From Glycomyces tenuis DSM 44171 (lineage in GTDB: Bacteria; Actinomycetota; Actinomycetes; Mycobacteriales; Micromonosporaceae): a DNA stretch of 64,000 nucleotides. Below the pieces are notes generated by a model that had not been told where the DNA came from, did not search any database, and saw only the letters and a program-made list of their open reading frames with translations. The stretch is from positions 124,001-188,000 of the forward strand of contig NZ_ATYW01000003.1 in the NCBI RefSeq assembly GCF_000427885.1, in the 5' to 3' direction. This document shows, piece by piece, positions 29,207 through 52,342 of this stretch (position 1 is the first letter of the stretch; each line of letters begins with the position of its first letter). Position numbers and translations under genes: made by a program.

Positions 29207-30613
29207 ATGGCCGACCGATTCCTCGTCGCCGGAGCACGGGTCGCCGGGACCGCCTGCGCCGAGGCCCTCCTCGCGCAGGGCAAGGCCGTCACCGTCTACG
29301 ACCGCGACGACTCCGAGCGGCTCGCCGCGCTCGCCGCGCTCGGCGCCCGGACCGTCGCCGCCGAGGACTTCGACCCCGCGCTGCTCGACGACGTCGACGA
29401 GGTCGTGCTCTCGCCGGGCTTTCCGCCCCACCACCCGGTCGCCGTCGCCGCCCGCGAACGCGGGCTCGAGACCTACTCCGAGCCCGAGCTCGCCTGGCGG
29501 CTGCGCGAACCGGGCGCCCCGCGCTGGCTGGCCGTCACCGGCACCAACGGCAAGACCACGACCACCACCATGCTCGCGGCGATGCTCAGGGCCGGCGGGC
29601 TGCGCAGCGCCGCCCTCGGCAACATCGGCGAACCGCTCGTGTTCGCCGCGAACGGTCCCTACGACGTCCTCGCCGTCGAGCTGTCCAGCCAGCAGCTCCA
29701 CTGGTCGAAGCTGCTGGCCCCCGAGGCCGGGGCGATCCTCAACCTCGCCGCCGACCACCTCTCCTGGCACGGCGGCTACGACGCCTACGCCGAAGCGAAG
29801 ACCGCGATCTGGCGCGGCGGCACCGCGATCGTCAACCTCGACGACCCCCACGTCACCGCCCTCGCCGAGCAGTCCACCGCCGAGACGATCGGCTTCACCC
29901 TCGCCGAGCCCGAACCGGGCCAGTTCGGCGTAGTCGCAGACAAGCCGAACCGAGGGCGCAGCGGCGTCGCCCTCGGCCACCTCGTCGACTACACCGGCGG
30001 CCGCCCGGTGCGGATCTGCCGGGCCGACGAGGTGCGGCCCGCCGGGGACCACAACGTCGCCAACGCCCTCGCCGCCGCCGCGCTGGCCTCGCGGGTGGGC
30101 GTCGGCCCCGAGGACATCGCCCGCGCGATCCGCGAATACGAGCCCGAACCGCACCGCAACGTCACCGTCGCCGCTTCCGGCGGCATCACCTGGGTGGACG
30201 ACTCCAAGGCCACCAACCCGCACGCCGCCGCCGCCGCGCTCGCCGCCTACGACTCCGTCGTCTGGATCGCCGGAGGCCAGCTCAAAGGCGTCGACATCGA
30301 CGAGCTCGTCGCCCGCTTCGCCACGAAACTGCGCGGCGCGATCCTCATCGGCCAGGACCGGGCCCAGATCGCCGACGCGCTGGCGCGACACGCCCCCGGC
30401 CTCCCCGTCACCGTCCTCGACGGCGGGGACGATGCGGTCATGACCGACGTCGCGGCCCGCGCGGCCGAACTCGCCGAAGCCGGAGACACCGTCCTGCTGT
30501 CCCCGGCCGCGGCCTCCTACGACATGTTCGGCTCCTACGCCCACCGCGGGGACGCCTTCACCGCCGCCGTCAGGCAGACTCTCGGTATGGACGACCCGAG
30601 CGAGACCTCGTGA
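29207..30613 (+). CDS. murD: UDP-N-acetylmuramoyl-L-alanine--D-glutamate ligase
   Basis: The Mur ligase (468 residues from this start) has the ATP loop GTNGKTTTTTML, the lid GNIGEPL, ELSSQQL, ADHLSWHGGYDAYAEAK with the lysine to be carbamylated, and WVDDSKATNPHAA. I prefer the ATG at 29207 because GGGGG lies 6 nt upstream; the ATG at 29201 in the same frame sits directly on that sequence. Its stop overlaps the GTG of ftsW. Unlike ftsW, murG and murC, its motifs are entirely standard. Confidence 0.95.
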   Translation: MADRFLVAGARVAGTACAEALLAQGKAVTVYDRDDSERLAALAALGARTVAAEDFDPALLDDVDEVVLSPGFPPHHPVAVAARERGLETYSEPELAWRLREPGAPRWLAVTGTNGKTTTTTMLAAMLRAGGLRSAALGNIGEPLVFAANGPYDVLAVELSSQQLHWSKLLAPEAGAILNLAADHLSWHGGYDAYAEAKTAIWRGGTAIVNLDDPHVTALAEQSTAETIGFTLAEPEPGQFGVVADKPNRGRSGVALGHLVDYTGGRPVRICRADEVRPAGDHNVANALAAAALASRVGVGPEDIARAIREYEPEPHRNVTVAASGGITWVDDSKATNPHAAAAALAAYDSVVWIAGGQLKGVDIDELVARFATKLRGAILIGQDRAQIADALARHAPGLPVTVLDGGDDAVMTDVAARAAELAEAGDTVLLSPAAASYDMFGSYAHRGDAFTAAVRQTLGMDDPSETS

Positions 30614-31878
30614 GGTCCGGCTTCACCGAGACGCTCCGAGGCCTGCTCGACCGACCGCTGGCCTCGTACTACCTGCTGCTGTCCTCCAGCGCGCTCCTGC
30701 TCACCATCGGCCTGGTCATGGTCTTCTCCGCGACCATGGTCGAGTCCTACTCCGAGAACGGCGACGCCTTCGCCATCGTCGTCCGGCAGGCCACGTGGGC
30801 GCTGGTCGGCCTGGTCGGCTTCTGGATCGCCCAGCGCCTCCCGGCCCGCACCTACCGCAGCGTCTCCCGGCCGCTGCTCGTCTTCTCGGTGATCCTCGGC
30901 CTGATCTTGCTCGCCCCGAACTTCGGGAACTCGGTCGTCGGCACCGACGACCTGTGGATCCACCTCGGGCCCGTCCAGTTCCAGCCCGGCGAGCTCGCCA
31001 AGTTCGCGCTGCTGCTGTGGGTGGCCGACTCGCTGGTGCGCCTCGGCCCGCGCATCGCCTCCTGGCGGGACCTCGCCGTCCCGCTGTTCCCCATCGCGGG
31101 CCTGTCGATGATCATCATCGGCTACTCCGACTTGGGCACCATGCTCATCATCGTCGCCATGTTCATCGGCCTGCTGTGGTCGGCCGGGGTGCCGATGCGC
31201 ATCCTCGGCACCCTCTTCGCCATCGCCCTCGCCGGATCGGCCCTCCTCATCGCCTTCGAGGGCTACCGCATGGAGCGCATCGTCTCCTTCAACCGCCCCG
31301 AGGACTTCGCCGACGGCTGGGGCTACCAGGCCATCCAGGGCTACTACGCGATCGCCGACGGCGGCTGGTTCGGCGTCGGCCTCGGCGAGAGCCGCCAGAA
31401 GTGGGAATGGCTCCCCAACGGCCACAACGACTTCATCTTCGCGCTCATCGCCGAGGAACTCGGCGTCGTCGGCTGCCTGGTGATCCTGGCGCTGTTCGGC
31501 GTCCTCGTCTACACCGGCTTCCGCATCGCGCGCCGCTCGGCGGACCCGTTCCGCAAGCTCGTGGCGGCCGGCGTCACGATGTGGCTGGCCGGCCAGGCGT
31601 TCATCAACATCGGCGGCGTCCTCGGCCTCATCCCCATCACCGGGGTCCCGCTGCCGTTCATCTCCGACGGCGGCACGGCGCTGGTCGTCGTGCTCGCCGC
31701 CGTCGGGATGCTCGCCGGCTTCGCGCGTGCCGAACCCGACGCCGCCGTGGCACTGCGGGCGCGCAATCCGTCCCGTCTCGTACGATTCCTGTGGGCACCC
31801 CTGCCTCCAGCGCCCGCCGGCGCCGAGAGCGGCTCCTCGTCCAAGCAGACCAGCGGGAGCAGGACTCCCTCCGGCTGA
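30610..31878 (+). CDS. ftsW: FtsW-type SEDS lipid II polymerase
   Basis: The 422-residue protein has about ten membrane segments and a SEDS fold. The conserved acidic residue region is present (GPVQFQPGELAKFALLLW), but the usual QPSE reads QPGE, GARRWI is replaced by GTDDLWIHL, and the late GVPLPFISDGGTAL has Asp where most SEDS proteins have Tyr or Ala. It should polymerise lipid II with a class B PBP at the septum; no ftsI is in this cluster. The GTG overlaps the murD stop. The C-terminal tail after residue ~385 is Pro/Ser-rich. Confidence 0.93.
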   Translation: MRSGFTETLRGLLDRPLASYYLLLSSSALLLTIGLVMVFSATMVESYSENGDAFAIVVRQATWALVGLVGFWIAQRLPARTYRSVSRPLLVFSVILGLILLAPNFGNSVVGTDDLWIHLGPVQFQPGELAKFALLLWVADSLVRLGPRIASWRDLAVPLFPIAGLSMIIIGYSDLGTMLIIVAMFIGLLWSAGVPMRILGTLFAIALAGSALLIAFEGYRMERIVSFNRPEDFADGWGYQAIQGYYAIADGGWFGVGLGESRQKWEWLPNGHNDFIFALIAEELGVVGCLVILALFGVLVYTGFRIARRSADPFRKLVAAGVTMWLAGQAFINIGGVLGLIPITGVPLPFISDGGTALVVVLAAVGMLAGFARAEPDAAVALRARNPSRLVRFLWAPLPPAPAGAESGSSSKQTSGSRTPSG

Positions 31879-31926
31879 TCGGGCGAGCAACCCCGAGTCC
31901 GACACCGTCCCTTCGACCAGAAAGCC

Positions 31927-33042
31927 TTGAAGTTGCCTCAGCTACGATCGGCCGTCCTCGCCGGAGGCGGCACCGGCGGCCACATCTACCCGCTCCTGGC
32001 GTACGCCGACTGCCTGCGCCGCCACGACCCCGGCATCCGCATCACCTGCCTCGGCACCGAGAAGGGCCTGGAGAACGAGCTCATCCCCAAGGCCGGCTAC
32101 GAGCTGCGCAACGTCCCCGCGCACCAGCTGCCGCGCAAGGTCAACGTCGACCTGCTGCTGACCGCGCCGCGCATGCTCAAGGCCATGAAGGCGACCCGTG
32201 CGATCCTCGACGAGGTGCAGGCCGACGTCGTGGTCGGTTTCGGCGGCTACGTCGCCGTCCCCGCCTACCTCGCCGCCTGGCGCCGCAAGACCCCCATGGT
32301 CATCTTCGAGTTCAACGACCCGCCCGGGGTCGCCAACAAGCTCGCCTTGAAGTTCAGCGACAACCTCGCGCTCGGCTTCCCGCACCTGCCGCAGACGTCG
32401 CCGCTGCTGGCCGACGGCACCATCACCGGCGTGCCGCTGCGCCCGGCGATCTCCCGGCTCGACCGGGCCGCCCGCCGCGCCGAGGCCTGCGCCCGCTTCG
32501 GGCTCGACCCGAACCGGCCCGTCCTGTTCGTGTACGGCGGCTCCCAGGGCGCGAACTCCATCAACCAGGCCGTCTCGGGGGCCGCCCACGCGCTCACCCA
32601 CCGCGGCATCCAGGTCCTGCACATCATCGGCGCCCGCCGCGAGGAACCGGTCCACGTGCCGGACGGCCTGCCGGTCGCCTACCGGACGCTGCCCTATCTC
32701 AACGAGATGGAGCTCGGCTACGCCGCCGCCGACATGGTCATGGGCCGCGGCGGCTCCATGACCGTCGCCGAGGTGACCGCGCTGGGCCTGCCGACCGTGT
32801 TCGTGCCGATGCCGTGGGGCAACAAGGAGCAGTACCGCACCGCCGGGCCCGTCGTGGCCGCCGGCGGCGCGATCTTCTGCGACGACGAGAACCTCAACCC
32901 CTCGTGGATCGAGGCCAACCTCGTCCCGCTCATCACCGACCGTGCGAGACTGGCGGCGATGGCCCAAGCCTCCGCGGGCTTCGGACGCCGCGACGGCGAC
33001 GAGGCCCTGAGGCAGTTCACTCTGAAAGCCGTGAACGTATGA
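31927..33042 (+). CDS. murG: UDP-GlcNAc:lipid I N-acetylglucosaminyltransferase (divergent)
   Basis: The 371-residue GT28 protein has AVLAGGGTGGHIYPLLA, VGFGGYVAVPAYLAAW and FVYGGSQGANSIN. Normally conserved blocks differ: FEFNDPPGVANKL in place of HEQN/HEAN, GRGGSMTVAE in place of SRAGAxTxxE, and NKEQYRTAG in place of the DxQxxNA type. It should complete lipid II at the inner membrane face. A TTG start at 31927 is used, with a weak ribosome site. The last codons (FTLKAVNV) are the first copy of the 32-bp repeat that forms the downstream micro-ORFs. Confidence 0.92.
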   Translation: MKLPQLRSAVLAGGGTGGHIYPLLAYADCLRRHDPGIRITCLGTEKGLENELIPKAGYELRNVPAHQLPRKVNVDLLLTAPRMLKAMKATRAILDEVQADVVVGFGGYVAVPAYLAAWRRKTPMVIFEFNDPPGVANKLALKFSDNLALGFPHLPQTSPLLADGTITGVPLRPAISRLDRAARRAEACARFGLDPNRPVLFVYGGSQGANSINQAVSGAAHALTHRGIQVLHIIGARREEPVHVPDGLPVAYRTLPYLNEMELGYAAADMVMGRGGSMTVAEVTALGLPTVFVPMPWGNKEQYRTAGPVVAAGGAIFCDDENLNPSWIEANLVPLITDRARLAAMAQASAGFGRRDGDEALRQFTLKAVNV

Positions 33043-33074
33043 AGCACAGCACTCTGAAAGCCATGAACCCATGA
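33039..33074 (+). CDS. Micro-ORF 1 of the murG-murC ladder (11 aa)
   Basis: It encodes MKHSTLKAMNP. The ATG overlaps the murG stop (ATGA) and its own TGA overlaps the next ATG. GAAAG lies 10 nt before the start. This copy has Met where the others have Val in TLKAV. Too short for a normal domain; it may act through translation itself. Confidence 0.55.
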   Translation: MKHSTLKAMNP

Positions 33075-33106
33075 AGCACAGCACTCTGAAAGCCGTGAAC
33101 TCATGA
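33071..33106 (+). CDS. Micro-ORF 2 of the murG-murC ladder (11 aa)
   Basis: It encodes MKHSTLKAVNS, with ATGA overlaps at both ends and the same GAAAG 10 nt before its ATG. Its TLKAV codons are identical to those ending murG. Confidence 0.55.
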   Translation: MKHSTLKAVNS

Positions 33107-33138
33107 AGCACAGCACGTTGAAGGCCGTGGGCGCATGA
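33103..33138 (+). CDS. Micro-ORF 3 of the murG-murC ladder (11 aa)
   Basis: It encodes MKHSTLKAVGA, with ATGA overlaps at both ends. Relative to copy 2, Thr, Leu and Lys codons differ silently (ACG TTG AAG against ACT CTG AAA), while the two residues before the stop have changed. Confidence 0.55.
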   Translation: MKHSTLKAVGA

Positions 33139-33169
33139 GCGGGCAGAGCACGTTGAAGGCGGTTGCGCG

Positions 33170-33173
<4 letters not shown>
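33135..33173 (+). CDS. Micro-ORF 4 of the murG-murC ladder (12 aa)
   Basis: It encodes MSGQSTLKAVAR. TLKAV is kept with all five codons different from copy 2 (ACG TTG AAG GCG GTT), while the N-terminal residues have changed. Its TGA overlaps the ATG of murC. GAAGG lies 10 nt before that ATG, at the same spacing as in the earlier copies. Confidence 0.55.
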
Positions 33174-34582
<1,409 letters not shown>

Positions 34583-34587
34583 GCCGC

Positions 34588-34622
34588 CCCGGGCCGCGAC
34601 CGGTCTCCGGTCACGGCCCGGG
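34588..34622 (+). terminator. Terminator of the murE-murC operon
   Basis: Arms of 16 bp with one mismatch (34588-34603 and 34607-34622; CCCGGGCCG...CGGCCCGGG) close a 3-nt loop six bases after the murC stop. It separates the Mur genes from ftsQ-ftsZ. Confidence 0.7.
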
Positions 34623-34687
34623 CACGTCTCCGTCGCAATACCGCTGTGCGGGCGTCGCTCGGCACCGCACCGGGGTTCACTGGGAGT

Positions 34688-35182
34688 ATGCGCACGCTTC
34701 TGATCACGCTCCTGGCGGTGTCCGCCGCCGCGGCGCTCGCCGGATGCAGTCCGGAAGACGTGGGTGACGTCGGCGTCGGCGTGAACGCCCAAGGCGATCC
34801 GGTTCTGGTGATGGCCTCGTGCGAAGGGCCCGCCGACAGGATCGAGATCAGCTCCGCGAGCGCCGCCGAGCCCGGGCCGGAGGGCCGGAACTGGGCCACC
34901 GAGCGGGAACTGGAGAACCCCGAACCGAGCTACGCCGATCCGGCGGCCGTCTCCCTGGCCGAACCGGATCCCCGCTGGGAGGACGACGGCGGTCGGCCGG
35001 TGGGCTTCGAGGACGACCGGATCTACCGGGTGCGGGCCTTGCCCGAAGGGGCCGGCACGCTCGGCTCGGTCTCCTTCGAGATGGCCGACCTCGCTGGTCT
35101 GGAGCCCGGCGAGGTCTTGTCGGATCGCGGCATCGCCTCGGTCTCCGAGTTCATCGACCGGGCGCACGAGGCATGCGGCTGA
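34688..35182 (+). CDS. Small lipoprotein of unknown function
   Basis: The 164-residue protein has a lipoprotein signal peptide with lipobox LAGC (lipidated Cys20), then an acidic extracellular domain of ~145 residues with two cysteines (MASC, HEACG) that could form a disulfide. The ATG at 34688 is chosen to place the signal peptide at the N-terminus; the frame is open for 14 codons upstream. No family is recognised. It sits between murC and ftsQ, where actinobacteria do not usually have such a gene. Confidence 0.7.
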   Translation: MRTLLITLLAVSAAAALAGCSPEDVGDVGVGVNAQGDPVLVMASCEGPADRIEISSASAAEPGPEGRNWATERELENPEPSYADPAAVSLAEPDPRWEDDGGRPVGFEDDRIYRVRALPEGAGTLGSVSFEMADLAGLEPGEVLSDRGIASVSEFIDRAHEACG

Positions 35183-35270
35183 GCGGCCGGATGCGTGCCC
35201 GCCCCGGCTCGCCTATAGTTGGCATAGGTCAACACGGTGATCACCACTCGAACCAGCCGAGGAGGCGACG

Positions 35271-35879
35271 ATGGTCATGACCCTCCAGAAACCGGACAAT
35301 GAGGCATGCTCCTATGATGAACGGAGCGAAGACTTCGGTTACATGGTGGAGACTGCCAGTGAACTGGATCTTCCGGATGGATTCAGTGCCGAGGTGTTCG
35401 GGGGGAATATCGTCGTGTCGCCGTGGTCGCGGGGCTCCTATTTCAGGCCGATGAACTCGTTGCTGAACCAACTCGAACCGCATGCACCTGAGAGTCATGT
35501 GACCAGTGGGGCTCCGTTCAAGTTCGTCTTCCCGAACCATGCGGCGGCGGTGGGCCCCGACGTGTGGGTGGCCGACGAGGACATGATCGAGATCGATTCG
35601 TCGAAACTCCCGGGGGAAGCGCTGTCGCTCGTGGCCGAATTGACCTCGCCTTCGACGCGAGGACGTGATCTGACCACGAAGGCCGACCTCTACGGACACG
35701 CCGGCGTGCCCGTCTACCTCCTGTTCGATATGAAGGAGCAGCGGTGCACCGTCTACTCCGAACCGTCGTCTCGATACGGTTATCAGAGCCTGGTTGCAGT
35801 GGAGTTCGGCAAACCGGTGCAGGTGCCCGAACCGTTCGGTTTCGAGCTCGACACCTCGGCGTTCAAACGGCAGCGTTAG
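35271..35879 (+). CDS. Uma2-family putative restriction-endonuclease-fold protein
   Basis: The 202-residue protein matches the Uma2/DUF820 pattern: GPDVWVADEDM (Asp) and VAELTSPSTRGRDLTTKADLYG (Glu and Lys), then GVPVYLLFDM, a PD-(D/E)xK-like core. The family's biological role is unknown; members occur singly in many actinobacteria and cyanobacteria. Codon use has clearly more A and T than its neighbours (for example aat, gat, tat and cat codons near the start), suggesting acquisition. GAGGAGG precedes the ATG. Its stop shares bases with that of the convergent siderophore-interacting gene. Confidence 0.75.
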   Translation: MVMTLQKPDNEACSYDERSEDFGYMVETASELDLPDGFSAEVFGGNIVVSPWSRGSYFRPMNSLLNQLEPHAPESHVTSGAPFKFVFPNHAAAVGPDVWVADEDMIEIDSSKLPGEALSLVAELTSPSTRGRDLTTKADLYGHAGVPVYLLFDMKEQRCTVYSEPSSRYGYQSLVAVEFGKPVQVPEPFGFELDTSAFKRQR

Positions 35880-36799
35880 TCGGCGTCGCGGCCGTTCCTC
35901 CAGTAGCCCATGAAGGCGCCGCAGTCCTTCGGCAGGCCCAGGTCCTGTCGGATGGTGCGCCGCAGAGTCTTCACCACGCCCGCTTCGGCCGCGATCCACA
36001 CGTACGACTCGCACACCCCGGCCTCCCCCGGCGCGTCCCACAGCGTCTCGGTGTCGACGTCGACGTCCTCGAGCTCCTCCAGCGTCGCCCGGATCTTCAG
36101 ACCCGCGGCGGCCTCGGTGACGGCCGGGACGAGCTGTGAGCCCCATTCGGCGCCGTCGCGCGGCAGCCAGTGCACCTCGACCTCCGGCGGCGCGTCCAGC
36201 TCCAGGGCGTCGGCGGTCCCGGGCACCTCGATGAAGACCTTGCCGTGCGCGGTGATCGGCAGGCGCTCCAGGATCGCGGCGATGGCCGGCGCGGCCGTCT
36301 CGTCGCCGCCGATGAGCACTTCGGCGTTCTCCGGCGCGTGGAAGTCAAGGCCGCCGTGCGGGCCGTCGTAGCGCGCGTCCGGCCCGAGCAGCACGAGCTC
36401 ACTGCCGACCTCGGCGGCCAGGGCCCACCGCACGGCGGGGGACTCGTGGCCCGCCTCCGGTTCGTGGACGACCATGTCCACGTCGACCTCGCCGGTCTCG
36501 GGGCGCACCGCGCGGACGGTGTAGGTCCGCACCCGGCACTGCTCCTCGTCGGGCAGCGCCCGCATCTCGGAGTACCACCGGTCGCCGTCGGGGAACTTCT
36601 CGAAGCCGCACGCCGGAGCCGGGAAGATGAGCTTGAACCGCTGGTCGTAGCCGTTGTCGGCGAAATACCGCAGCTCGTCCGAGGCGAAGGTGACGCGCAG
36701 GAACGACGGGCTGAGCCGCCGCAGCGCCTTGACGGCGCCGCGGAAGGCCCGCCACGGCCGGACGGTGTCGAGGGTGAGATCCACGGTCTGCGTCGTCAC
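35876..36799 (-). CDS. Siderophore-interacting protein (FAD-dependent ferric-siderophore reductase family)
   Basis: The 307-residue protein has an N-terminal FAD-binding domain with RVRTYTVRAV (RxYTxR) and a C-terminal NAD(P)H-binding SIP domain (EVLIGGDETAAPAIAAILERL). It reduces Fe(III)-siderophores in the cytoplasm to release iron. The GTG at 36799 has GGAGGAG upstream. An iron box covers its promoter region, so expression should rise in low iron. Its partner importer is encoded 21-25 kb away at 57961-61880. Confidence 0.9.
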   Translation of the reverse strand: MTTQTVDLTLDTVRPWRAFRGAVKALRRLSPSFLRVTFASDELRYFADNGYDQRFKLIFPAPACGFEKFPDGDRWYSEMRALPDEEQCRVRTYTVRAVRPETGEVDVDMVVHEPEAGHESPAVRWALAAEVGSELVLLGPDARYDGPHGGLDFHAPENAEVLIGGDETAAPAIAAILERLPITAHGKVFIEVPGTADALELDAPPEVEVHWLPRDGAEWGSQLVPAVTEAAAGLKIRATLEELEDVDVDTETLWDAPGEAGVCESYVWIAAEAGVVKTLRRTIRQDLGLPKDCGAFMGYWRNGRDAD

Positions 36800-36819
36800 G
36801 CGCTGCTCCTCCTAGAAGA

Positions 36820-36840
36820 ATAAGGTTTGCCTTACCTTAT
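36820..36840. promoter_or_regulatory. DtxR/IdeR-type iron box upstream of the siderophore-interacting protein gene
   Basis: ATAAGGTTTGCCTTACCTTAT is a 21-bp near-palindrome. Its central 19 bp match 15 of 19 positions of the IdeR consensus TTAGGTTAGGCTAACCTAA as I remember it. It begins 20 bp before the start codon, suited to repression by Fe2+-bound IdeR. Confidence 0.7.
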
Positions 36841-36897
36841 ATGAGTCGACTGGCATGTCGCCACTCCCGTCGGGCCTCGACGTGGCATCATCGAGCG

Positions 36898-37626
36898 ATG
36901 CGCGCTCGACGCGAAGACCAGGGCCCGTGGCGACTCGTCCACCTCGTGCGCCGCCGCGTGCCGGGCCGCCGCCTGTGGCCGTGGGGCCTCGCCGTGGTGG
37001 CCGTCGTGTCGCTCGCGTTCGGAACCGTCTGGGCCACACCGCTGTTCGCCGTCAAGGAGGTCCGCGTCTCCGGGACCAGCGTCCTGGACCCGGCCGAAGT
37101 GGCCTCGGCCGCAGACGATTACCTCGATCAGTCGATCCTCCGAGCCGACCTCGACGCGATCGCCGCCGAAGTCGCCTCGTCGCCCCCAGTGAAATCGGTC
37201 GATGTATCGCGCTCGTGGCCCACTGCGATCCTCATCGAGGTGACCGAGCGCGAGCCATATCTCGCCGTGCCCTCGGGCGAAGAGACTTTTCTCATGATCG
37301 ATTCCGAAGGCGTCGTCTTCGACGAAGTCGCCGAAATCCCCGAGTCCATTTGGAACGTCGAACTCGACGCCCCGGGGCCCGGCGACCTGGCGACCACCGA
37401 GACCATCGCGGTCCTCCGCTCACTGCCATCGGCCCTGGCCGACGCGGTGGAACGGGTCGAGACGCCGTCACCCGCGGCGGTGACGCTGTACCTCGAAGGT
37501 GGACGGACGCTCAAGTGGGGCGACGGCTCGGCGAACGAAGAGAAAGCCCGCGTCGCGCTTCGATTGCTGGAGAGCGGGTACGAACATGTCGATGTCAGCG
37601 CACCAGATGCACCCTCTGTGAGTTAG
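36898..37626 (+). CDS. ftsQ: Cell division protein FtsQ (DivIB family)
   Basis: The 242-residue protein has a basic cytoplasmic N-terminus, one membrane segment (residues ~25-45), a POTRA domain beginning [18 protein letters not shown], and an FtsQ domain with [21 protein letters not shown]. It links early and late divisome parts at the septum. The ATG at 36898 is preferred because it starts directly before the basic region; a CATCAT hexamer 6 nt upstream may serve as a -10. The codons before it have no similarity to the family. Confidence 0.9.
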
Positions 37627-39684: not shown

Positions 39685-40251
39685 ATGGGCGCGATGCGGA
39701 AGGCAGGCGTGTGGCTCGGCCTCATCGAAGACGAGGAGGACCGCGGCTACAACGCGTACGACGACAATGACGAGTTCGCTGACGAACCCGCGGCGCAGAG
39801 CCGCCACACCCAGCGCACCACCGGGCGGCTCGGCCGCGCCGGCGACGACCGCGGCACCGTCCGGCAGCTCAACCGCAGCTCCGGCTCGGTCACTCCGCTG
39901 ACCCGCGACAACCTCGCGCTGGCCGATCCCGCGCCGGTGCGACCCGTCCCGGCCGAGGAGGAGTCCCCCACGAACTACCGGATCACCACCCTGCACCCCA
40001 CGACGTACAACGAGGCGCGCACCATCGGCGAGCGCTACCGGGACGGCACTCCGGTCATCATGAACCTCTCGGAGATGGAGGAGGCGGACGCCAAGCGGCT
40101 CGTCGACTTCGCCGCCGGGCTGATCTTCGGCACCAGGGGCTCCTTCGAGCGGGTCACGAACCGCGTGTTCCTGCTCTCGCCCCCCCATGTGCAGGTGACG
40201 GCCGAGGACAAGGCGAAGATCGCCGAGGGCGGATTTTTCAACCAGTCGTGA
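39685..40251 (+). CDS. sepF: Cell division protein SepF
   Basis: The 188-residue protein has an N-terminal amphipathic membrane-binding helix ([18 protein letters not shown]), an Arg/Gln-rich linker and the C-terminal SepF domain ([49 protein letters not shown]). It anchors FtsZ to the membrane, which is important in actinobacteria lacking FtsA. GAGGAGGGAG precedes the ATG. Confidence 0.96.
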
Positions 40252-40270
40252 TTGAGGGATACTGGCGACC

Positions 40271-40564
40271 GTGAACCTCGCACTGCAGCTGATCTATCTG
40301 GCGCTCTTCGCCTTCTACCTGTTCCTCCTGGCGCGGCTGGTGGGCAGCGTGGTGGTCCAGTTCTCCCGCAGATGGCAACCCGGCCCCAAGGCGGCCGCCT
40401 TGCTGGAAACCGTGTTCAGCGTCACCGACCCTCCCCTGAAAGGGTTGAGGAAGGTCATACCGCCCCTGCGGCTTGGTACTGTATCGATTGATCTGGCGTT
40501 CCTGGCGCTGCTCTTGATCGTGTGGATCCTGATGGACTTCGTCGTCGGGGAAGCGATCGCGTAG
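40271..40564 (+). CDS. yggT: YggT-family membrane protein
   Basis: The 97-residue protein has two membrane segments (~residues 4-28 and ~73-92) separated by the family motif [20 protein letters not shown]. The family always travels with sepF and divIVA and is linked to cell division and osmotic or K+ balance, without a known mechanism. A GTG start is used 19 bp after sepF. Confidence 0.9.
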
Positions 40565-51679: not shown

Positions 51680-52342
51680 ATGGCTCTGGTGAAACGCGTC
51701 GAGGAATCAGGGCCATGGGCGCAGTTGTACGGCTACTCGCGTGCGGTGGCGGTGGGGCCGCTGGTGGTCACCAGCGCCTGCACCGCCGACGTCGAAAGCC
51801 GCCCTGAGCTGCTCGACGATGCGGGAGCGCAGGCGAAGGAGGCGTTCCGCACCGCGCTGGACGCGATGGTCCACGCCGGGGCGAGCGTGGCGGACGTGGT
51901 GCGCTCGCGGCTGTACGTGACCGACCCGGCCCACGCCGACGCGGTGGGCCGCGTCCACGGCGAGTTCTTCGGCGTGGTGAAGCCCACGGCCACGGTCGTG
52001 ACCGTCGCGCGGCTGTTCCATCCCGGCCAGCTCGTCGCCGTCGAACTCGAGGCGTTCCGGGCTTGGCGAGATTTACGGCTCGCGAGCATCGCCGTGGGGG
52101 CGGGATTTACGGCTCGCGAGCGTCGCCGTGGGGGCGGGATTTACGGCTCGCGAGCGTCGCCGTGGGTGCGAGATTTACGGCTCGCGAGCGTCGCCGTGAG
52201 CACGGGACTTACAGCCCGCAAGCGCTCCGCGGTGGCGGGACTTACGGCTCCCGGACCCCGCCGCGAGTGCGAGACTGGTGGACGGCGATCGCCGCCGGGA
52301 TCGGGAGCAACCGACCTGAACGAGCGTTCAGTTGCGCCGTAG
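51680..52342 (+). CDS. RidA/YjgF-family protein with a repeat-derived C-terminal extension
   Basis: Residues 1-127 form a normal RidA domain (YSRAVAVGPLVVTSACTAD, DVVRSRLYVTDP, VEAFRAW-type end AVELEAFRAW). RidA proteins hydrolyse reactive enamines or imines. Instead of stopping there, the frame runs through six 34-bp tandem repeats, adding ~93 low-complexity residues (LRLASIAVGAGFTARERRR and variants) and ending inside the next gene's promoter. The native stop was probably lost when the repeats arose. GGGAGG precedes the ATG. Confidence 0.8.
   Translation: MALVKRVEESGPWAQLYGYSRAVAVGPLVVTSACTADVESRPELLDDAGAQAKEAFRTALDAMVHAGASVADVVRSRLYVTDPAHADAVGRVHGEFFGVVKPTATVVTVARLFHPGQLVAVELEAFRAWRDLRLASIAVGAGFTARERRRGGGIYGSRASPWVRDLRLASVAVSTGLTARKRSAVAGLTAPGPRRECETGGRRSPPGSGATDLNERSVAP
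52070..52271 (+). repeat. Tandem array of six 33-34-bp repeats
   Basis: Copies begin at 52070, 52104, 52138, 52172, 52206 and 52239, with a decayed start of a seventh at 52272. The unit contains GATTTACGGCTCGCGAGC; GCTCGCGAGC is a perfect palindrome, so each copy can fold. Copies 1-4 are nearly identical and copies 5-6 have diverged. There are no unique spacers, so it is not a CRISPR. Confidence 0.9.

Follow-up and report, generated by a model that had tools for sequence, protein, structure and literature searches.

Termination-reinitiation pairs join genes at −4 (NTGA) or −1 (TGATG, TAATG) (PMC6728339, PMC10666635), and a review describes short ORFs through which ribosomes reach a gene, as well as mycobacterial MIRUs, which go in at start codons and bring a −4-coupled ORF with them (PMC12548453). 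Studies quoted in two sources disagree on whether a ribosome that has terminated must find an overlapping start or can reach one by scanning over tens to hundreds of bases (PMC10666635, PMC12548453). In E. coli and Haloferax reporters coupling was nearly abolished once the gap reached about 20 nt, and contrasting studies quoted in the same paper report coupling over longer distances (PMC10666635); the review likewise refers to studies in which coupling was seen from +25 to +40 nt and at greater distances (PMC12548453). Among single short frames, the PPE2 uORF of M. tuberculosis shows AUGA coupling with demonstrated reinitiation (PMC11260477), and mgtQ, an intercistronic small ORF before Salmonella mgtB, is described as using alternative stem-loops and acidic residues to favour translation of the gene that follows (PMC8092293). 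For Bordetella, it has been proposed that MurG acts as the scaffold of a complex of Mur enzymes, binding having been demonstrated for MurE-MurF (PMC6420597). Our limited literature search found no paper on murG and murC with translational coupling and none on an intergenic minicistron with translational coupling; for tandem duplication, micro-ORF and translational coupling together, none was relevant by title and start of abstract.

In the 64-kb window (the whole stretch of DNA analysed here), the 127 nt between murG and murC are spanned by four micro-ORFs of 11, 11, 11 and 12 codons, whose starts overlap the preceding stops as ATGA. The features are as follows.

31927..33042, + strand: murG, read from its translation, with a TTG start and Pfam domains Glyco_transf_28 and Glyco_tran_28_C
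33018..33129, + strand: 32-bp tandem repeat array (TRF, 3.5 copies, 90% matches, score 175), units in register
33024..33028, + strand: GAAAG before micro-ORF 1, at 10-nt spacing, duplex −4.1 kcal/mol with an assumed 16S tail
33039..33074, + strand: micro-ORF 1, MKHSTLKAMNP, ATGA at both ends
33071..33106, + strand: micro-ORF 2, MKHSTLKAVNS, ATGA at both ends
33103..33138, + strand: micro-ORF 3, MKHSTLKAVGA, ATGA at both ends
33135..33173, + strand: micro-ORF 4, MSGQSTLKAVAR, period 35
33155..33159, + strand: GAAGG before murC, −7.4 kcal/mol, stronger than the other four Shine-Dalgarno matches
33170..34582, + strand: murC, with its ATG at 33170 in the last ATGA and Pfam domains Mur_ligase, Mur_ligase_M and Mur_ligase_C

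The murG stop, read from the sequence, is the TGA at 33040-33042, and the last murG codons hold the Shine-Dalgarno-like GAAAG together with the first ATGA; murG would serve as the upstream donor of ribosomes and murC as the acceptor gene of a relay. GAAAG precedes three of the five starts and GAAGG the other two, in each case 10 nt upstream and inside the upstream frame, with duplex energies (computed against the assumed 16S tail) that are weak at micro-ORFs 1–3 (−4.1 kcal/mol each) and at micro-ORF 4 (−5.2 kcal/mol) and reach −7.4 kcal/mol at murC, the last within the range found in Glycomyces (−5.6 to −7.5 kcal/mol). A fourth, apparently older unit extends the ladder beyond the TRF array to 33173. 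The initial annotation had described exactly this arrangement, and its four coupled micro-ORFs are present letter for letter, as are the five ATGA junctions in 135 bp and the GAAAG or GAAGG exactly 10 nt before every start; its tandem-repeat origin likewise agrees with the TRF call and with the resemblance of the units to the adjacent murG 3' end.

With ATG starts only, the forward strand of the window has no other run of at least two coupled micro-ORFs, and the reverse strand has none; the ladder was detected from two entry points, the second being an internal ATG of micro-ORF 1. A pattern of ATGA spacing searched over the whole genome gave 162 forward and 192 reverse matches, and its reversed form gave 13 and 11; these counts are uninformative, because coding DNA here is rich in ATGA and such a search takes no account of frame.

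Every rung carries the junction motif of termination-reinitiation pairs, and the locus shares with them a Shine-Dalgarno inside the upstream frame and co-directional genes of one pathway; it differs from the pairs in the available descriptions in that its genes lie 127 nt apart and are joined by non-conserved micro-ORFs, so that distance alone would call murG-murC uncoupled. The closest known kind is the MIRU-like coupled ORFs of mycobacteria: both are small repeats with a coupled ORF beside a gene, possibly in tandem (PMC2734929), that keep, or in the window would keep, downstream translation, and the window units are coupled to the flanking gene at −4 as those ORFs are. Unlike MIRUs as described in the sources available, the array duplicates the 3' end of murG and sits at a single genomic site, and the bridges in relatives are unrelated in sequence and concentrated on murG-murC. 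The array itself was the only match below E 0.01 in its own genome (next best match 0.038), its units resemble the adjacent murG 3' end rather than a mobile insertion, and sister genomes carry one unit at the same place. Since scattered copies and mobility are both lacking, the array is not a MIRU, though it would work like one. The initial annotation's remark that no equivalent has been described thus stands for the dcw cluster within our limited search, with mycobacterial MIRUs as a described analogue elsewhere. The PPE2 uORF is likewise a short frame delivering ribosomes in a high-GC actinobacterium; it differs in being tied to a riboswitch and lying upstream of one gene, with no bridge between protein genes and no repeat mentioned in the available part of that paper (PMC11260477). 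The ladder shares with mgtQ, as far as that source goes, the position of a small ORF between cistrons and the proposed promotion of the next gene; its four peptides contain no Asp or Glu, and its fold is unremarkable (z +0.48).

Searching 22 Glycomyces genomes, our own included, we found a direct −4 overlap of murG and murC in 19 of the 21 others (18 ATGA, one GTGA) and a single coupled 11-codon micro-ORF in the remaining two (L082 and L083, whose junctions are those of L002 and L001); the nearest named relative is G. arizonensis, with 90% identical MurC. The window, L001 and L002 formed one clade with support 99/99 in a tree of MurG plus MurC, and the simplest history has a single origin of one micro-ORF in this clade, followed by the addition of three units in the lineage of the window. 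The ladder is thus young and lineage-specific, the four-copy array being known from one assembly. Unit 4 looks like the older unit and the probable counterpart of the single micro-ORF in L001 and L002, because its last 19 letters match that micro-ORF save one base and the strongest Shine-Dalgarno match, the −7.4 kcal/mol one before murC, sits inside it. Unit 3 is a mosaic, in which ACGTTGAAGG matches unit 4 and much of the remainder matches units 1–2, as expected from unequal exchange. By simple arithmetic, a duplication across ATGA with a length of 2 mod 3 (32 or 35) rebuilds a separate coupled micro-ORF, and one with a length of 0 mod 3 gives one frame running through both copies. Random copy number in relatives, with frames and ATGA junctions destroyed, had been named in the initial annotation as the pattern that would contradict its reading; it was not seen, copy number in Glycomyces being 0, 1 or 4 and all units being intact in the three genomes that have any.

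We then compared murG-murC junctions gathered from named loci and from further genomes of the family and class, where the family is one tool-assigned label (f1) that takes Glycomyces and Micromonosporaceae together, the labels of some genomes coming from the tool. Of 101 family genomes, 30 entered as loci and 60 of the other 71 were included; outside the family, 60 of 128 genomes with a match were included, L265 and L284 having no murG upstream and L260 (gap 596) being left out. In 19 of 192 sequences the two genes could not both be placed at first; of these, 12 were recovered, five had no murG upstream (L216, L220, L224, L225, L226) and two were excluded (L028, L045); L190, with an unclear start, was also left out. 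Identical junctions were collapsed before counting, and a junction was called bridged when a chain of stop/start-coupled micro-ORFs spanned murG stop to murC start. The murC starts are predicted, and the headline counts use homology-set starts, three of the 61 bridges (L061, L065, L068) depending on a start that was shifted to match the homologous one in relatives. In the hand-set version of the data, used for the Fitch counts below, twelve junctions were set to the −4 start and so counted as direct (L025, L030, L052, L059, L173, L202, L252, L259, L283, L291, L292, L295); the starts of L239 and L280 were chosen because they are bridged, and those two carry no evidential weight.

Among 137 distinct family junctions, 47 were direct (−4 or −1), four overlapped otherwise and 86 were gapped, and 61 of the 86 gapped junctions were bridged, over gaps of 21–310 nt. 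Fifty-five of these 61 bridges consist of one micro-ORF, four of two, one of three and one, that of the window, of four. Where NTGA stood at both ends of the gap, 52 of 55 junctions, at 24 distinct gap lengths, were bridged, vs 14.6 expected when gaps were shuffled and length mod 3 was randomised; picking starts purely by Shine-Dalgarno score gave 49 of 52 vs 13.0 expected. The three exceptions (L052, L173, L202) read in frame from the murG stop into MurC, so that a coupled start there would give a longer MurC. With a TAA or CTGA murG stop the link became TAATG (L056, L188) or TGATG (L034, L051, L060, L075, L204). Fitch counts on the MurG tree with hand-set starts gave at least 36 changes of gap length among bridged tips and at least 11 interchanges between direct and bridged; the count of 52 in 55 makes for a fairer test, because tips that lose the chain are excluded from the bridged set by definition. 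In L210 and L228 the gap is one base shorter than in the neighbouring L189 and L200, and two micro-ORFs bridge it instead of one. These comparisons strongly supported the translational relay put forward in the initial annotation, in that the overlaps and the frame were kept over many changes of gap length as sequence and length drifted. Nothing in them pointed specifically to the other roles suggested there, the setting of a MurC:MurG ratio or a ribosome-queue sensor.

A neutral reading of the same data is that slippage copied the murG 3' end, the frames being a passive result of repeat length and of the few stops in high-GC DNA, with murC initiating alone. It fits a recent, lineage-specific ladder with freely evolving micro-peptides, and it gains from the result that gaps shuffled at unchanged length still gave about 31 bridges among 77 gapped junctions (observed 56). 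In silico, moreover, 45% of 1-nt deletions in these gaps still leave a chain, so that keeping the frame at each event is less improbable than one in three; the junctions are also related by descent, and P values were not adjusted for kinship. However, passive frames would hardly give the excess of 52 bridged junctions over the 14.6 expected, and two further observations, on a control junction and on Shine-Dalgarno strength (both below), also speak against them, so that we regard the neutral reading as quite unlikely.

The control junctions came from the same 80 loci, with gaps of at least 12 nt. Bridges spanned none of 10 ftsW-murG gaps, two of 42 murC-ftsQ gaps and none of 64 ftsQ-ftsZ gaps, vs 32 of 39 murG-murC gaps (7.6 expected); among the junctions compared, bridging was thus concentrated on murG-murC. 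The strong control is ftsQ-ftsZ, where NTGA flanks 23 of the 64 gaps on both sides and no bridge occurs in these 23, vs 27 of 28 such murG-murC junctions bridged in the 80-locus subset (mechanical starts). The other two are weak controls, because gaps with NTGA at both ends number none of 10 for ftsW-murG and only two of 42, both bridged, for murC-ftsQ; several of the 42 murC-ftsQ gaps, in Glycomyces rows, exceed 1 kb. In the window about 2.2 kb with other ORFs (34583-36840) parts murC from ftsQ (ORF 36841-37626), the Glycomyces rows of the control set likewise having more than 1 kb; a Uma2 family protein (Pfam) lies in between at 35271-35879, and ftsZ follows ftsQ at about 37704.

A rough genome-wide count over 400 kb of one family genome gave two bridged among 87 gapped pairs (1.1 expected), and in the window two of 20 gapped pairs were bridged, namely murG-murC and sepF with its next gene, both counts using home-made gene calls. 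At 40248-40274 of the window the micro-ORF VIEGYWRP bridges sepF (Pfam SepF) to the next gene, which we take to be YggT-like. Where NTGA stood at both ends of this gap, 11 of 13 Glycomyces genomes were bridged (9 of 11 distinct), with gaps of only 19 and 22 nt, and the other genomes among the 21 read (L337 left out) had CTGA, another start or an in-frame stop. A second bridged junction that is partly kept in the genus is suggestive only. Elsewhere in the window, a 34-bp tandem repeat at 52065-52297 (5.5 copies, TRF score 260) overlaps the 3' part of ORF 51680-52342, with two of three forward frames open throughout.

The frame was kept and the peptide was not. We compared 18 sequence pairs whose gaps are equally long and whose murG identity exceeds 80%, no sequence entering two pairs; pN/pS was 0.93 for the micro-ORFs (171 nonsynonymous and 66 synonymous differences) and 0.22 for the last 100 codons of murG, and purifying selection on the micro-ORF peptides was not found in these pairs. 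Between genera the peptides differ in both length and sequence. These values bear on the possibility that the 11-mers act themselves or sense translation like leader peptides, for which it can be said that the four window units keep a recognisable peptide and that copies 2 and 4 retain TLKAV despite five silent changes. The initial annotation was right that all five TLKAV codons differ silently between these copies; they are nevertheless no sign of peptide selection, because in the sister species the same stretch of the unit corresponding to copy 4 is IVKAV and TSKAV. With a pN/pS of 0.93 and bridges of unrelated length and sequence in other genera, functional micro-peptides are close to refuted and highly improbable as an explanation, and the suggested family of micro-peptides was dropped. 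Equally remote is a DNA or RNA element, by which the region would act as a promoter, terminator, folded RNA or insulator. Repeats can bind regulators, and nothing specific was found: a sigma-70 consensus scan showed no promoter-like or terminator-like site in the ladder region, the fold there was not special against shuffles (z +0.48, as above), and no Rfam family was present in 30000-36000; moreover, unrelated sequences occupy the same place in relatives.

Shine-Dalgarno strength followed the junction type. The median duplex energy before murC was −8.1 kcal/mol at bridged, −7.5 at direct and −10.1 at unbridged junctions (bridged vs unbridged, Mann-Whitney P 1e-6, kinship ignored), and values of −10 kcal/mol or below occurred in 5 of 61 bridged, 7 of 47 direct and 16 of 25 unbridged junctions. 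Bridged junctions are thus closer to direct overlaps than unbridged ones are, which argues against murC initiating alone behind a passive bridge. Most unbridged junctions have a GTGG or ATGG start, a murG stop without NTGA and a strong Shine-Dalgarno, as expected if murC initiates alone there. Eight of the unbridged junctions are Catellatospora or Catellatospora-like. L073, L079 and L080 have a GTGA murC start with a middling Shine-Dalgarno; by eye L079 and L080 are near misses, and L073 is broken at the first link. By eye, the 108-nt gap of L073 (Actinoplanes couchii) seems to hold the murG 3' end once more in degenerate form, and after it a TGATG-linked micro-ORF that leads into murC; it may possibly be a decaying ladder. 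Outside the family, 45 of 57 junctions were direct and five of the 12 gapped ones were bridged (homology-set starts), three of them with gaps of only 4 nt. The features kept in these comparisons are the frame, the stop/start overlaps and a Shine-Dalgarno near the 3' end.

Bridges built from repeats recur. L201 has three identical 89-bp units and L078 two 62-bp units, and L248, in another family, has three 35-bp units, its congener L244 having a direct overlap; that such periods are 2 mod 3 is no extra evidence, because coupled units are spaced 2 mod 3 by definition. In L019, L063 and L162 the repeat copies are 0 mod 3 and read as a single longer micro-ORF, whose end is still at murC. A repeat encoding peptides that start with VSARSE or VSARSA fills several murG-murC gaps, is read in the coupling frame in L019, L044, L063, L078, L162 and L201, and may be a MIRU-like element. 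For the Micromonosporaceae GTGAGCGCGAGGAGTGAGC-type repeat, present in several murG-murC gaps, 400 kb of one genome held two copies within three mismatches; MIRU-like status is unproven, as neither begins at the stop of a convincing gene.

We consider it likely, given the junction comparisons, that selection keeps murC coupled to murG by termination-reinitiation, that micro-ORFs carry ribosomes over insertions, and that the ladder is an over-extended case of this arrangement. Ribosomes finishing murG would reinitiate at the overlapping murC start (ATGA). A duplication or insertion would part the genes, and if coupling is lost at about 20 nt, such a gap would cut off or weaken murC unless a micro-ORF carries the ribosome across; the hand-over would survive only if a micro-ORF spans murG stop to murC start. 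A tandem duplication across ATGA with a length of 2 mod 3 would build such a micro-ORF at once, leaving both proteins intact and copying the internal Shine-Dalgarno along with ATGA. An old event of this kind would have made unit 4, and later 32-bp events would have added units 1–3, giving a four-step relay. The comparisons show the architecture, the order of events in the genus, a frame conserved without its peptide, and the concentration on murG-murC among the junctions compared; reinitiation by ribosomes at every rung, and coupling as the property under selection, are inferred.

Copy number could in addition act as a tuning dial, compatible with the relay, if each reinitiation step loses ribosomes and the number of rungs sets the MurC:MurG ratio and changes fast by slippage. 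The sister species differ in copy number (1, 1, 4), repeat-built ladders recur at murG-murC, and in M. tuberculosis the repeat length upstream of fpg1 is reported, in the available text, to track mRNA level (PMC2734929). However, 55 of 61 family bridges are single, with no sign of higher counts being kept, and the weak Shine-Dalgarno matches of the added rungs are as expected for relaxed copies, so that we think such a dial unlikely; most likely copy number itself is close to neutral and alters MurC output modestly if at all. Also rather unlikely is a combined proposal in which bridging micro-ORFs would be a general safeguard of coupling, a sequence-free relay in which only the frame is kept and NTGA is self-resetting, and the Glycomyces ladder, built on that principle, would set MurC supply as a dial that can be counted and that evolves rapidly.

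For the dispute over scanning, the murG-murC junction looks like an oft-repeated natural experiment, in which a reading frame, and not much more, bridges gaps of 21–310 nt. Should the relay be real, scanning by itself would be insufficient here, surveys based on intergenic distance would undercount coupled pairs, and gene finders would gain a signature that is independent of peptide conservation. The pattern points to a constraint on the dosage or co-assembly of MurG and MurC in actinobacteria.
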